Source of the DNA: Terriglobia bacterium
GTDB lineage: Bacteria; Acidobacteriota; Terriglobia; UBA7540
Length of the DNA stretch: 64,000 nt
Direction of reading: 5' to 3'
Assembly (NCBI GenBank): GCA_035712365.1
Contig: DASTAW010000003.1
Location: forward strand, 1 to 64,000
In this document: piece after piece, positions 39,617 to 43,140 of the stretch
Layout: each line of letters opens with the position of its first letter
Numbering within the stretch: position 1 is the first letter of the stretch
The notes under the pieces: model-generated
What the model saw: the letters and a program-made list of their open reading frames with translations, nothing else
The model's database searches: none
What the model was told of the DNA's origin: nothing
Translations under genes and position numbers: made by a program

Positions 39617-40567
39617 CTAAGGAACAAACAACTCGCTACATTCCTTTTCGAGCACGCCTCTCACCACCACCGGAGGCGGCGGCCAGTTGGGAATGCCGGC
39701 GTCAGTGAGAATGGGATGCTTTGAGCTGACGCCGCCAATGTGCGGCACGGCCTTTCCCATTATCACCCTGGAAATATGGGCGCTACGAATCACGAACGAA
39801 CACATGAAGCAAGGCTCCGCGGTGGTATATAGCTCGCAGCCCTCGAGTTCGCGAGTCGCTAAATTGCGGCAGGCATCCTGCACCGCTTTGAGTTCTGCAT
39901 GTGCGGTGAAATCCTTTTCGCTCCGCACGCCCTCGATGCCCTCGGCGACAATGCGCCCTTCGCGAACCACCACCGAGCCGACCGGCGTGTCGCCGCGTTC
40001 GAGAGCGGCGCGGGCCAACCGGATCGCCTGGCGCATGAATCCTTCGTCGCGAACTTGCGCCATGTCCGGCTTGGGATCTGTCCCCCCGTAGCCCATGCGG
40101 TTCCCTCGGGCGTTCGCTTGTTTGCCAACTTCAAACTGCGGAAGCAACTCGACCGCCGCGCTCACCGAGTTCGAAATGATGCAGGCTTCCTTCGCGTCTT
40201 TGAAGATCTCTTGCGCAAACGGAATGTCACTCTCCCGGCCGAGCGACACCGTGGGCTGTATTTGGATGTGGGTCACGCGGTATTTCCCGCCGTCGTTCTC
40301 CACGGTTGCTTCGGCACTGCTCTCATAAGCTGATATTTCCAGTTGTCGCCGCTCCGCGAAACTCAGGAAGGTGAGCATCAGACAACTGTTCACCGCGCCG
40401 GTCAGCAACTCCTCCGGGCACCACACGTCCTCCGTCCCCTTGAATTCCGGCGGGCTCCCGATCTCGACCGGCGGGCGCCGGCTGTTCGTCATCGTCCCAC
40501 GCCTGGCGGTCTGCCACGCGATTGCACTTTTGAAATGAAACACCTTGAACGTCTTCTTCGCCTCCAT
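39617..40567 (-). CDS. OsmC-like domain fused to cytidine/guanine-deaminase-like domain
   Basis: 316 residues; AGGAGG sits 5 nt before the ATG. Residues about 30-150 are an OsmC/Ohr-like fold, with Cys62 (GAVNSCLMLTF) and Cys129 (KEACIISNSV) in the places of the peroxidatic and resolving cysteines. Residues about 172-300 are a CMP/dCMP-type deaminase: H223-A-E225 in FTAHAELKAVQ and PC253-x2-C256 in TTAEPCFMCSF, the full zinc site and catalytic Glu; the GDTPVGSVVV and EGCELYTT strands resemble guanine/tRNA-adenosine deaminases. About 20 Gly/Asn-rich residues link them. I know each domain alone, not this fusion. Substrates are unknown. Confidence 0.75.
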   Translation of the reverse strand: MEAKKTFKVFHFKSAIAWQTARRGTMTNSRRPPVEIGSPPEFKGTEDVWCPEELLTGAVNSCLMLTFLSFAERRQLEISAYESSAEATVENDGGKYRVTHIQIQPTVSLGRESDIPFAQEIFKDAKEACIISNSVSAAVELLPQFEVGKQANARGNRMGYGGTDPKPDMAQVRDEGFMRQAIRLARAALERGDTPVGSVVVREGRIVAEGIEGVRSEKDFTAHAELKAVQDACRNLATRELEGCELYTTAEPCFMCSFVIRSAHISRVIMGKAVPHIGGVSSKHPILTDAGIPNWPPPPVVVRGVLEKECSELFVP

Positions 40568-41068
40568 TGGATCCTCCTGGCTCTTTTGATTCGTTTCCCT
40601 TCCCAGCCGTTGCAGCCCATGCCTACCGCCGGCAGTTCGATTTTGCCAGAACTTTCATCAAATCGACGAACTGCAATGTTTTCCAAGTTCCTCGCGGCTC
40701 TCGAGATCTTGCGCCGCAAGGAGGCCGGAGCATACGGGCCACAGAGCCGCTGAAATTCCGTAAGAGCAGTTTTCCAGACAGAACAGGCAGCGTGTGATAA
40801 CCCTCGTAATCGGGCCCTTGCTTCTCCAGCACACGCATGTCCTGTTAACGAATCGTGACACGGAATGGCGCGCCCGAGGCGCAAAAATGTGCGTGCCAAG
40901 TTGAACGCGGGTGCATCTAATTGGTTGATAGCGCCGAACCGCTCCAAGCCGCGCGCCTTTTCCGGAATTGAGCCTGACGGCGCCATGCAGTTGGGCAACT
41001 ACATCGGCGCGGTTAGCCAGTGGGGCAAAAAACCCCAGAGTGCCCTGAAATGAGAGGAGTTCTTCATC
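40568..41068. other. Intergenic gap, 500 nt, with a trpS relic
   Basis: No intact gene. The only recognisable content is the tryptophanyl-tRNA synthetase fragment at 40952-41023. AGGAG (41049-41060 region) belongs to the following comA-like gene. Confidence 0.45.
40952..41023 (+). pseudogene. Relic of tryptophanyl-tRNA synthetase N-terminus
   Basis: The frame reads RAFSGIEPDGAMQLGNYIGA then VSQW. TrpS proteins begin RVFSGIQPSG.LHLGNYLGA..QW, the class I HIGH-equivalent region. About 24 codons are recognisable, lacking the true N-terminus; the HIGH-type His is Gln and the PSG Ser is Asp. The frame ends at a stop 30 nt later. It cannot be functional; it may come from a duplicated trpS or an imported fragment. 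Confidence 0.55.
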
Positions 41069-41911
41069 ATGCCAGAAGCCCAAAATCAACACTCTGACCG
41101 CGCGTTCCCATTTCTGCGGCTGAATGACCGGCCCGCAAAGCCGCGCCAGCGCGGCATCACAGAAATCCGCGGGCCTTATTACACGCCGATGGGCAGCCGG
41201 TATCTTCAGGACATTCTCGACACCATGGGCTGGTACGTGGATGCTCTCAAATTTGCCGGCGGATCGTTCAGCCTGATGCCGCGCCAGACCGTCAAGAAAT
41301 TGCTCGACCTGTGCCATGCGCATGATGTACTCGTCTCCACCGGCGGATTCATCGAGCACGTTCTCACGCAGGGGCCGGAATCCGTGACGCGTTATATCGA
41401 GGAGTGCAAATCGCTCGGCTTCGACATCATTGAAATCTCCAGCGGCTTCATCACCATTCCTCATGACGACTGGCTGCGGCTGATCGAAAAAGTGCAAAAG
41501 GCCGGGCTCAAGGCCAAGCCGGAGGTCGGCATCCAGTTTGGCGCAGGCGGCGCCACCAGCGCCGAAGAATTGGCGGCCGAAGGCTCGCGCGATCCTGATG
41601 GCGCCATCGCCCAGGCCAAGCGCTTTCTGGAAGCCGGGGCCTACATGATCATGATCGAATCCGAAGGCATTACTGAAAACGTCAAAGTTTGGCGTACGGA
41701 TGTTCCGGCGAAATTTGTAAACGCCCTGGGAACCGAGAAGATCATGTTTGAAGCCGCGGACCCGGAAGTTTTCGCCTGGTACATCAAGAATTACGGCGCT
41801 GAAGTGAATCTCTTCGTCGATCACAGCCAGATCGTGCAGCTCGAGTGCCTGCGCTCGGGGCTGTGGGGCACCAAGAGCCTGTGGGGACGTGTCGTGACAT
41901 ACAAGGGCTAG
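41069..41911 (+). CDS. comA: Phosphosulfolactate synthase-like protein (ComA family)
   Basis: 280 residues, TIM-barrel. ITEIRGPYYTPMGSRYLQDILDTMGWYVDALKFAGGSFSLMP, STGGFIEHVL, GFDIIEISSGFITIP, KPEVGIQFGAGG and MIESEGITENV are all typical of the ComA/HSA32 family. ComA adds sulfite to phosphoenolpyruvate to make (2R)-phospho-3-sulfolactate (EC 4.4.1.19), the first step to coenzyme M in methanogens and to sulfolactate in some bacteria. AGGAG is 9 nt before the ATG. No comB or comC partner is nearby, so the pathway end product is unknown. Confidence 0.85.
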   Translation: MPEAQNQHSDRAFPFLRLNDRPAKPRQRGITEIRGPYYTPMGSRYLQDILDTMGWYVDALKFAGGSFSLMPRQTVKKLLDLCHAHDVLVSTGGFIEHVLTQGPESVTRYIEECKSLGFDIIEISSGFITIPHDDWLRLIEKVQKAGLKAKPEVGIQFGAGGATSAEELAAEGSRDPDGAIAQAKRFLEAGAYMIMIESEGITENVKVWRTDVPAKFVNALGTEKIMFEAADPEVFAWYIKNYGAEVNLFVDHSQIVQLECLRSGLWGTKSLWGRVVTYKG

Positions 41912-42097: not shown

Positions 42098-42456
42098 CTA
42101 ATTGACATTCGGCGCTTGGTGTGGAACTTGGTGTGACGCTCCCGCAAAATCGGCCTCTCTCTCGTCCGCCATGGTACTGGGCAAGACCGTGGCAATAAGC
42201 TCTAAGGCCTGCCGTTGAGCTTCGGGCCGGATGTGACCGTAACGCTTGGCCATCCGAATGGCCGTGGAAGCCGACCAGCCAAGCACCTGAGCAACCGTGG
42301 CAATAGGAACTCCGTTTTGGAGCATCTTGGTAACCGCCGAATGTCGCAAATCATGATACCGCAATCTAGAAACCCCTGCCAGTTCGCAAGCCCTGTGCCA
42401 TGCGGTCCGCCAGTTAGCGATCAGTCTGGAAGGATCAACATGGCCGGTTTCGACGT
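42098..42456 (-). pseudogene. Tyrosine recombinase (phage integrase), C-terminal fragment
   Basis: About 118 codons of a tyrosine recombinase catalytic domain: [20 protein letters not shown] holds the H-x-x-R pair, [19 protein letters not shown] holds the conserved W/H position and the nucleophilic Tyr. The first catalytic Arg and all of the core-binding domain are missing. It continues, without a stop, the frame of a thiolase fragment. Its closeness to tRNA-Val suggests the tRNA was the attachment site of a lost element. The fused frame has no sensible start for a working enzyme. Confidence 0.75.
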
Positions 42457-43140
42457 TGCCGCCGCCGAGGCACAGCGCGGCAACTCCGCGGCGCGCGTCG
42501 CGGCGTTCCATTTCGTACAGCAGGTCCACCAGGATGCGCGCTCCCGAGGCGCCAATCGGATGTCCCAGCGCCACTGCGCCGCCGTTCACGTTGGTCTTCT
42601 GCGGGTCCAGTCCCAGTTGCTCGATCACGGCCACCGCCTGCACGGCAAAGGCCTCGTTCAGCTCCACCAGGTCAACATCTTCAACTTTCCAGCCGGTTCT
42701 TTTCAGCAGCGACTCGACCGCGTCAATCGGGGCCATCATCACCCAGCGCGGTTCCACGCCGCTCACCGCCTGCGCCACAATCCGCGCCATGGGCTTTTTG
42801 CCCAGCTTCTGCGCGGTTTCAGCCGAGGTCACCAGCGTGGCGGCGGCGCCGTCATTCGTCCCCGGAGCGTTGCCCGCCGTCACCGTTCCGCCCTGTTTGA
42901 AAGCGGGTTTCAGGCGGGCCAGCTTTTCCAGCGAAGTGTCTTCGCGCGGCGATTCGTCAACGGAAAACTCCCGCATCTCGCTCTTTTTGCAGGGCACGCA
43001 AACAGGCACAATCTGGTCTTTCAGCTTTCCGCTTTTGATGGCCGCAACGGCGCGCCGGTGGCTTTCGAGTGCAAACCGGTCCTGCCGCTCGCGCGAAATC
43101 TGGTATTTTTCCGCCACCAGCTCGCGTGCCGCCGAGCAAT
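42457..43140 (-). pseudogene. Acetyl-CoA acetyltransferase (thiolase), internal fragment
   Basis: The reverse-strand frame encodes the C-terminal half of a thiolase: [65 protein letters not shown] (catalytic His) and ALCLGGGN (second Cys). The N-terminal half with the acyl-accepting Cys is absent, and homology fades near 43140. The last dozen residues of a thiolase are replaced at about 42457 by integrase sequence. The longest start is a GTG at 43117. It cannot be catalytic. Confidence 0.75.

Follow-up and report, generated by a model that had tools for sequence, protein, structure and literature searches.

An open reading frame joining an OsmC domain to a zinc deaminase in a Terriglobia genome, and a deaminase branch with glutamate at the substrate-anchoring position

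Gene P0001 of a Terriglobia bacterium (assembly GCA_035712365.1, contig DASTAW010000003.1) carries domains of two families in one reading frame, which raises the question of whether an OsmC protein and a zinc deaminase are genuinely joined here and, if so, what the joined protein would do. In the window, i.e. the whole stretch of 64,000 nucleotides that was analysed, the gene occupies positions 39617..40567 of the minus strand, stop codon included, as a single open frame with an ATG start, 316 aa and no internal stops (features given below by coordinates lie on this strand unless marked otherwise). The preliminary description of the locus, which named no strand, had claimed that OsmC and deaminase-like domains share one frame, that the frame has a good ribosome site and that both halves keep their active-site residues, and all three claims were borne out. 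Pfam matches to OsmC (PF02566; aa 46-140, E 4.6e-13, 49.9 bits, cut-off 27.5) and to dCMP_cyt_deam_1 (PF00383; aa 173-271, E 2e-24, 85.9 bits, cut-off 25; 39755..40051) fall in the 316-aa frame, an AGGAGG motif (40573..40578) lies 5 nt 5' of the ATG, and Cys62, Cys129, H223-x-E225 and C253-x2-C256 are all present and conserved in relatives.

The protein can be divided into an OsmC half (aa 1-147; 40127..40567), a linker (aa 148-168; 40064..40126) and a deaminase half counted from Met158 (aa 158-316; 39620..40096). An AlphaFold2 model built on relatives gave very low confidence to the middle of the linker (aa 151-163, pLDDT < 50) and 10-residue pLDDT means of 90-98 to the deaminase half from aa 171 onward, and the OsmC half modelled alone reached a pLDDT of 87 and a pTM of 0.82. 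Comparison with a genome of the same genus (G002) by the Nei-Gojobori method yielded dN/dS ratios of 0.31 for aa 1-113 of the OsmC part and of 0.15-0.19 for aa 217-315 of the deaminase part, and both halves are under purifying selection. A chance open frame is ruled out by family matches far above cut-off and by dN/dS < 1 in both halves.

Protein searches were run against overlapping sets of 61 relatives, 39 family members, 399 genomes of the class and 396 of the phylum; all candidates were scored in the relatives and family searches, and the class and phylum searches kept hits at E <= 1e-28 and E <= 1e-35, respectively, with up to five candidates scored per genome. Aa 1-316 were found in one frame only in the window's own genome (G000), and none of the other family, class or phylum genomes yielded a second one-frame OsmC-deaminase fusion. 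The closest arrangement is that of genome G030, in which osmC and the deaminase gene stand in tandem in the same order, in different frames and with a 4-base overlap, the osmC stop TGA sitting within the deaminase start ATGATG. Because both N-termini run 21 aa from Met to a shared FM, Met158 of the fusion corresponds to the start of the free G030 deaminase, and the fusion therefore looks like the tandem pair minus the osmC stop. A weak ribosome-site-like GAGG (40104..40107; motif match only) is found 7 nt before the Met158 ATG, so that deaminase may be made in free form as well. In G007 a scrap of an osmC end, detected over 31 residues with a custom OsmC profile (E 5.1e-6) and without a Pfam match, lies upstream of an open deaminase frame. 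Both halves are present in G002 on separate contig ends, one breaking off near aa 113 and the other starting from aa 217; since the contig ends break the gene at about aa 114-216, G002 neither supports nor opposes the fusion. That genome also holds a second partial osmC-deaminase copy (L025 1-343, L026 1-343, L027, L028) whose OsmC N-terminus is missing; the two copies are 97-98% identical over their shared ends, and behind the deaminase end in L025 comes a PAS/GAF gene, an order shared with G030.

We favour the explanation that P0001 is a genuine in-frame fusion derived from an osmC-deaminase operon pair, with both domains serving the same stress response, and put its probability at roughly 0.55; the explanations that we scored overlap (a regulatory OsmC half, for example, is compatible with a real fusion), and their figures sum to more than one. 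Under this proposal, loss of the osmC stop codon would have converted the operon pair into one frame. The OsmC half would be an organic-hydroperoxide reductase or redox domain working through Cys62 and Cys129, and the deaminase half a zinc hydrolase taking the exocyclic amino group off a free base, a nucleoside or a comparable small nitrogen heterocycle, and not off tRNA. Both activities would belong to the same oxidative-stress or detoxification response, for which fusion would provide co-expression and equal stoichiometry, and the internal start at Met158 might still yield free deaminase. Step-to-step channelling between the halves is not needed in this explanation, and strict coupling is opposed by the separate genes of G030, the location of the two genes on different contigs in G023, the osmC scrap of G007 and, within flanks of about 0.2 to 4 kb, the lack of a nearby OsmC in 24/30 clade genomes. 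Against the favoured explanation as a whole, OsmC is no constant partner of the deaminase clade described below, the G007 remnant is short, and the one-frame form occurs in a single genome.

In the deaminase half, H223-x-E225 (H223-A-E225 in the fusion; 39893..39901) and P252-C253-x2-C256 (zinc ligands C253-x2-C256, 39800..39811) are invariant in 12/12 aligned deaminases, the window's included. The class first proposed for this half, zinc cytidine/guanine-deaminase-like, stood as far as a zinc deaminase is concerned, but the nearest family by sequence and by fold is TadA and not guanine deaminase. The full-length fusion model had its best PDB matches in TadA, and the likeness to TadA (NF008113; 2b3j, 7cph, 1wwr) extends to the fold, with TM-scores to the target mostly of 0.80-0.93, and to 29-41% identity over the deaminase half, both among the matches listed, as well as to the HAE...PCxxC zinc site. 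Unlike TadA, the fusion carries Glu212 (39932..39934) for Asn and a tail of the form GG..S.HPIL...PP...GVL..EC for FF..R. Guanine and guanosine deaminases (GuaD 1wkq, GSDA 7dbf, NE0047 7c3t) share the superfamily and the zinc site, but match more weakly (TM-score to target 0.62-0.78 among the 50 matches listed). Glu212 aligns with the substrate-binding Asn, a position that we take to be N46 of E. coli TadA and that corresponds to Asn69 in GSDA.

Relatives of this deaminase were gathered by a pattern scan of genome contigs (71 loci) together with the protein searches of genomes, and were scored with a profile built from the 12-row deaminase alignment. Full-length clade members scored at least 148 bits, ordinary TadA proteins at most 125 and one Asn-bearing outgroup 121. 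In a tree built from 28 clade and 8 TadA sequences the two groups separated at 100/100 support, with Glu at the TadA Asn46 position in 28/28 clade rows, fusion included, and Asn in 8/8 TadA rows; after the addition of five named outgroup deaminases, of which four have Asn at that position and the fifth Asp, the Glu rows still stood together (97/95). This Glu clade is spread over at least five phyla, spanning Acidobacteriota, Chloroflexota/Thermomicrobiota, Planctomycetota, Bacteroidota and Thermodesulfobacteriota. With the NCBIfam TadA model NF008113 (cut-off 150) the fusion scored 81 bits and five clade members 69-93, and none of these reached any NCBIfam cut-off. The genome's own, separate TadA (G000 C30) has the Asn, an FF..R tail and a score of 191.5 bits against the same cut-off of 150. 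In TadA the C-terminal FF..R tail serves in tRNA binding, and in the 12-row alignment it is absent from the fusion deaminase. By the marks tested, the deaminase half is predicted to be neither a TadA nor a guanine deaminase. The nearest to the Glu clade among the five outgroups tested was a Bradyrhizobium septentrionale 'nucleoside deaminase' (WP_166217985.1, plasmid pBs162S2b), which has a similar tail, GPAPEIVSGLL, but keeps Asn at the substrate position and shows 36% identity; no OsmC was found among the five features annotated in the stretch comprising its gene and 3 kb flanks.

In the OsmC half, Cys62 (40382..40384) is invariant in 19/19 aligned OsmC sequences and Cys129 (40181..40183) is conserved in all 18 alignment rows that reach its column. 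Arg22/Arg23 and Glu52 are present as well, which we take to be the catalytic Arg and Glu of Ohr. The two cysteines are 67 residues apart, and the EstRM paper (PMC5113044) numbers the E. coli pair cys59 and cys125. The best PDB matches of the OsmC-half model were OsmC proteins, with Ta0195 (2onf) and VCA0330 (2d7v) ranked first; among the 50 Foldseek matches listed, the fold was matched with a probability of 1.00 but with modest TM-scores to the target (0.44-0.66) and large rmsd. The half scored 53.9 bits with the model of the SACOL1771 subfamily (TIGR03563), below its cut-off of 166. Family, fold and the two conserved cysteines are thus common to the fusion and to SACOL1771-type and Ta0195-type OsmC proteins (TIGR03563, 2onf, 2d7v), but the fusion differs from these in having an extra cysteine, Cys50 (40418..40420), and a C-terminal deaminase. 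The OsmC half of the fusion forms one branch (93/93 support) with its closest relatives, the OsmC sequences of G002, G023, G030 and G385, and Cys50, within a W-C-P-E motif, is found in 5/5 members of this branch, whereas T, S or G occupies the position in 24/24 other readable OsmC sequences (three more were unreadable). A Glu-clade deaminase is present in 5/5 genomes with a Cys50-type OsmC versus 13/399 class genomes, a contrast that was framed after seeing the data and is inflated by shared ancestry.

Genomic neighbourhoods provide a further link between osmC and this deaminase branch. OsmC was found near a clade deaminase in five arrangements: fused in the window, overlapping in G030, convergent in G385, nearby in G352 and as a remnant in G007. 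G385 belongs to another family, and its OsmC and deaminase genes are convergent at about 0.7 kb; the OsmC of G352 is of a different type and lies about 1.5 kb from the deaminase. On the other hand, no OsmC was found near the deaminase, within flanks of about 0.2 to 4 kb, in 24/30 clade genomes, G023 included, the 30 being our own count of distinct genomes over several overlapping searches. The chance of at least two independent cases of OsmC near the deaminase in 27 loci is given by a Poisson P of about 0.008, assuming 0.5% per locus as judged from OsmC counts in six genomes and with independence counted post hoc. A repeated linkage of osmC and this deaminase branch in genomes is supported by these data.

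In G030 the same-strand run consists of mmgE/prpD, a fumarase/aspartase-type lyase gene, osmC, the deaminase gene and a gene for a PAS/GAF sigma-54 activator. Upstream of osmC in the window there is only a remnant of the 3' end of mmgE/prpD (40568..40869), which lies within a 642-column DNA match, 81.9% identical, to C26 of G002, where the gene has both MmgE_PrpD domains; a Pfam search of window positions 40658-40996 gave no match. Around 25 clade loci, the domains found in neighbouring ORFs included DUF488 (4), PAS_9 (4), CMD (3), PNPOx_N (3), glyoxalase (3) and OsmC (3), in a descriptive tally, made without a control, of 83 ORFs (82/112, 30 having been dropped by eye, plus L058:901-1377). 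The CMD proteins are presumably AhpD-like, and the deaminase gene of G007 adjoins one for an HhH-GPD glycosylase, which we take to be AlkA. The pattern suggests redox and detoxification functions with no single fixed partner.

Several details of these neighbourhoods may be recorded. DUF488 genes lie near the Glu-clade deaminase at three Acidobacteriota loci and one planctomycete locus (L040 954-1568; L043 3401-3958; L062 595-1566; L057 5206-5637), and PNPOx-like genes directly upstream of it at one Bacteroidota and two Planctomycetota loci (L056 2863-3963; L057 2980-3954; L058 2848-3930). Planctomycete loci of the TadA gene look alike in gene order. In G385 (L045 3-1265, plus strand) the deaminase frame extends without a break into a glutaredoxin domain (PF00462, 4e-10), which may represent either one protein or two.

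With these data at hand, the alternatives can be weighed. A possible reading, though one we hold to be on the unlikely side, is that the fusion is real and incidental, the stop codon having been lost without functional coupling, so that the domains would act independently and much of the deaminase would perhaps be made from Met158. The coincidence of Met158 with the free G030 start and its weak GAGG, the low model confidence of the linker, and the reduction of the osmC partner to a scrap in G007 and its place on another contig in G023 are all consistent with such an origin, as are the signs of locus decay seen in the mmgE/prpD remnant and in the truncated second copy of G002. Against this reading, proximity of OsmC and the deaminase recurs in other lineages, and genomes that carry an OsmC of the Cys50 branch carry the deaminase too.

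Somewhat less probable, and unlikely in our judgment, is that the OsmC half is not an enzyme and instead adjusts the activity of the deaminase as a module for redox sensing or dimerisation. EstRM (PMC5113044) offers a precedent for the linkage of OsmC to another enzyme, but it differs from the fusion in that OsmC stands at the C-terminus and is paired with a serine esterase. According to that paper, the EstRM OsmC domain kept both cysteines, yet had no peroxidase activity in the assay used, and its removal raised the esterase activity (PMC5113044); a fused OsmC can thus retain its two cysteines and still show no measurable peroxidase activity, a point that also counts against the favoured explanation. 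The extra Cys50 of the deaminase-associated OsmC branch would also suit a sensing role. Against it stand the conservation of Cys62 and Cys129 and the fact that free OsmC relatives keep the same pair.

Doubtful to a greater degree is an artefact, i.e. that a substitution error or a strain variant in a draft assembly masks the osmC stop, and that two separate genes are present. The preliminary description had tied the fate of the fusion to its being found only here and being explained by a sequencing error that removed a stop and start; the genomes searched did indeed yield no second one-frame form, but a one-base indel fails as the error. In the other two frames no stop is met until 90 and 115 codons after the junction, so a hidden one-base indel is no simple explanation, and a frameshift artefact through a single indel is ruled out as a simple cause. 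A base-substitution error is possible at one of 4/12 linker codons that lie one substitution away from a stop, and the G030 overlap illustrates how tightly the two genes can be packed. On the other side, third-position GC in the linker (0.76) is about that of the OsmC (0.77) and deaminase (0.70) parts, and, although the assembly is a draft of 65 contigs, the fusion-bearing contig is 127.7 kb long and the genome is 98.9% complete.

Returning to the favoured fusion of two domains serving one stress response, the substrate of the deaminase half can be approached through Glu212. According to the GSDA study (PMC9739398), Asn69 of this plant guanosine deaminase contacts the ligand, plays a key part in catalysis and in anchoring the substrate, and is a residue that guanine deaminase conserves. 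The fusion has Glu in place of this substrate-anchoring Asn, and Glu212 precedes the catalytic Glu225 by 13 residues, the same distance as that between Asn69 and Glu82 of GSDA. By analogy, a carboxylate at this position should favour a hydrogen-bond donor on the bound ring, where guanine or adenine would offer an acceptor; candidate donors would be the N7-H of an 8-oxopurine or the amino group of a diamino-heterocycle. A change at the equivalent TadA residue, N46L, is listed among engineered TadA changes (PMC12442613).

One rival, an idea of the preliminary description, builds on this by making the whole protein a detoxifier of oxidised nucleobases, in which the OsmC half would act first, reducing the hydroperoxide of a base or nucleoside, and the oxidised base would then lose its amino group to the deaminase. 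Glu for Asn would fit a donor substrate such as an 8-oxopurine with its N7-H, and at one or a few loci the neighbours (OsmC, CMD, a glutaredoxin domain and, in G007, the HhH-GPD glycosylase) point in the same direction. Diamino-heterocycles would suit Glu equally well, however, and the two domains occur apart in relatives, so that we hold this reading to be improbable. More speculative still, and with a small probability in our estimate, the Glu clade as a whole might comprise undescribed zinc deaminases acting on oxidised purines such as 8-oxoadenine, with Glu accepting N7-H, which in Terriglobia would be wired, and here fused, to a hydroperoxide reductase as a base-oxidation clean-up enzyme. 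Last, a second tRNA adenosine deaminase is very improbable and was rejected, since, although TadA supplies the best PDB and fold matches, the deaminase half has Glu for Asn, lacks the FF..R tail that the genome's own TadA has, reaches about half the NCBIfam TadA cut-off score and coexists with a normal TadA encoded elsewhere in the genome.

Among the papers listed in searches of the open literature, we found no description of OsmC fused to, or paired with, a deaminase, nor of the deaminase branch or of a contact made by the TadA Asn. P0001 is thus a case of known folds in a combination not found in these searches, together with a coherent deaminase branch. This branch is easily recognised by one conserved substitution at the position that anchors the substrate, which also gives a concrete substrate prediction; should its members act on oxidised or xenobiotic heterocycles, a link between peroxide defence and base salvage would be directly testable.

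A defence-system role was also considered and set aside, PADLOC giving just a weak dCTPase match at the zinc motif (27.8 bits, aa 223-269). Among 72,556 plasmid records, 241 contained some match to the fusion protein and none (0/72,556) a match covering at least 80% of it. Beyond the fusion gene, and divergent from it, the window encodes a ComA-type phosphosulfolactate synthase (41069-41911, plus strand; PF02679, 2.6e-85). Further on, a single minus-strand frame (42098-43117) combines later thiolase sequence (the end of Thiolase_N, plus Thiolase_C) with the C-terminal portion of a phage-type integrase (PF00589, 7.6e-11), which is perhaps a mobile-element scar.
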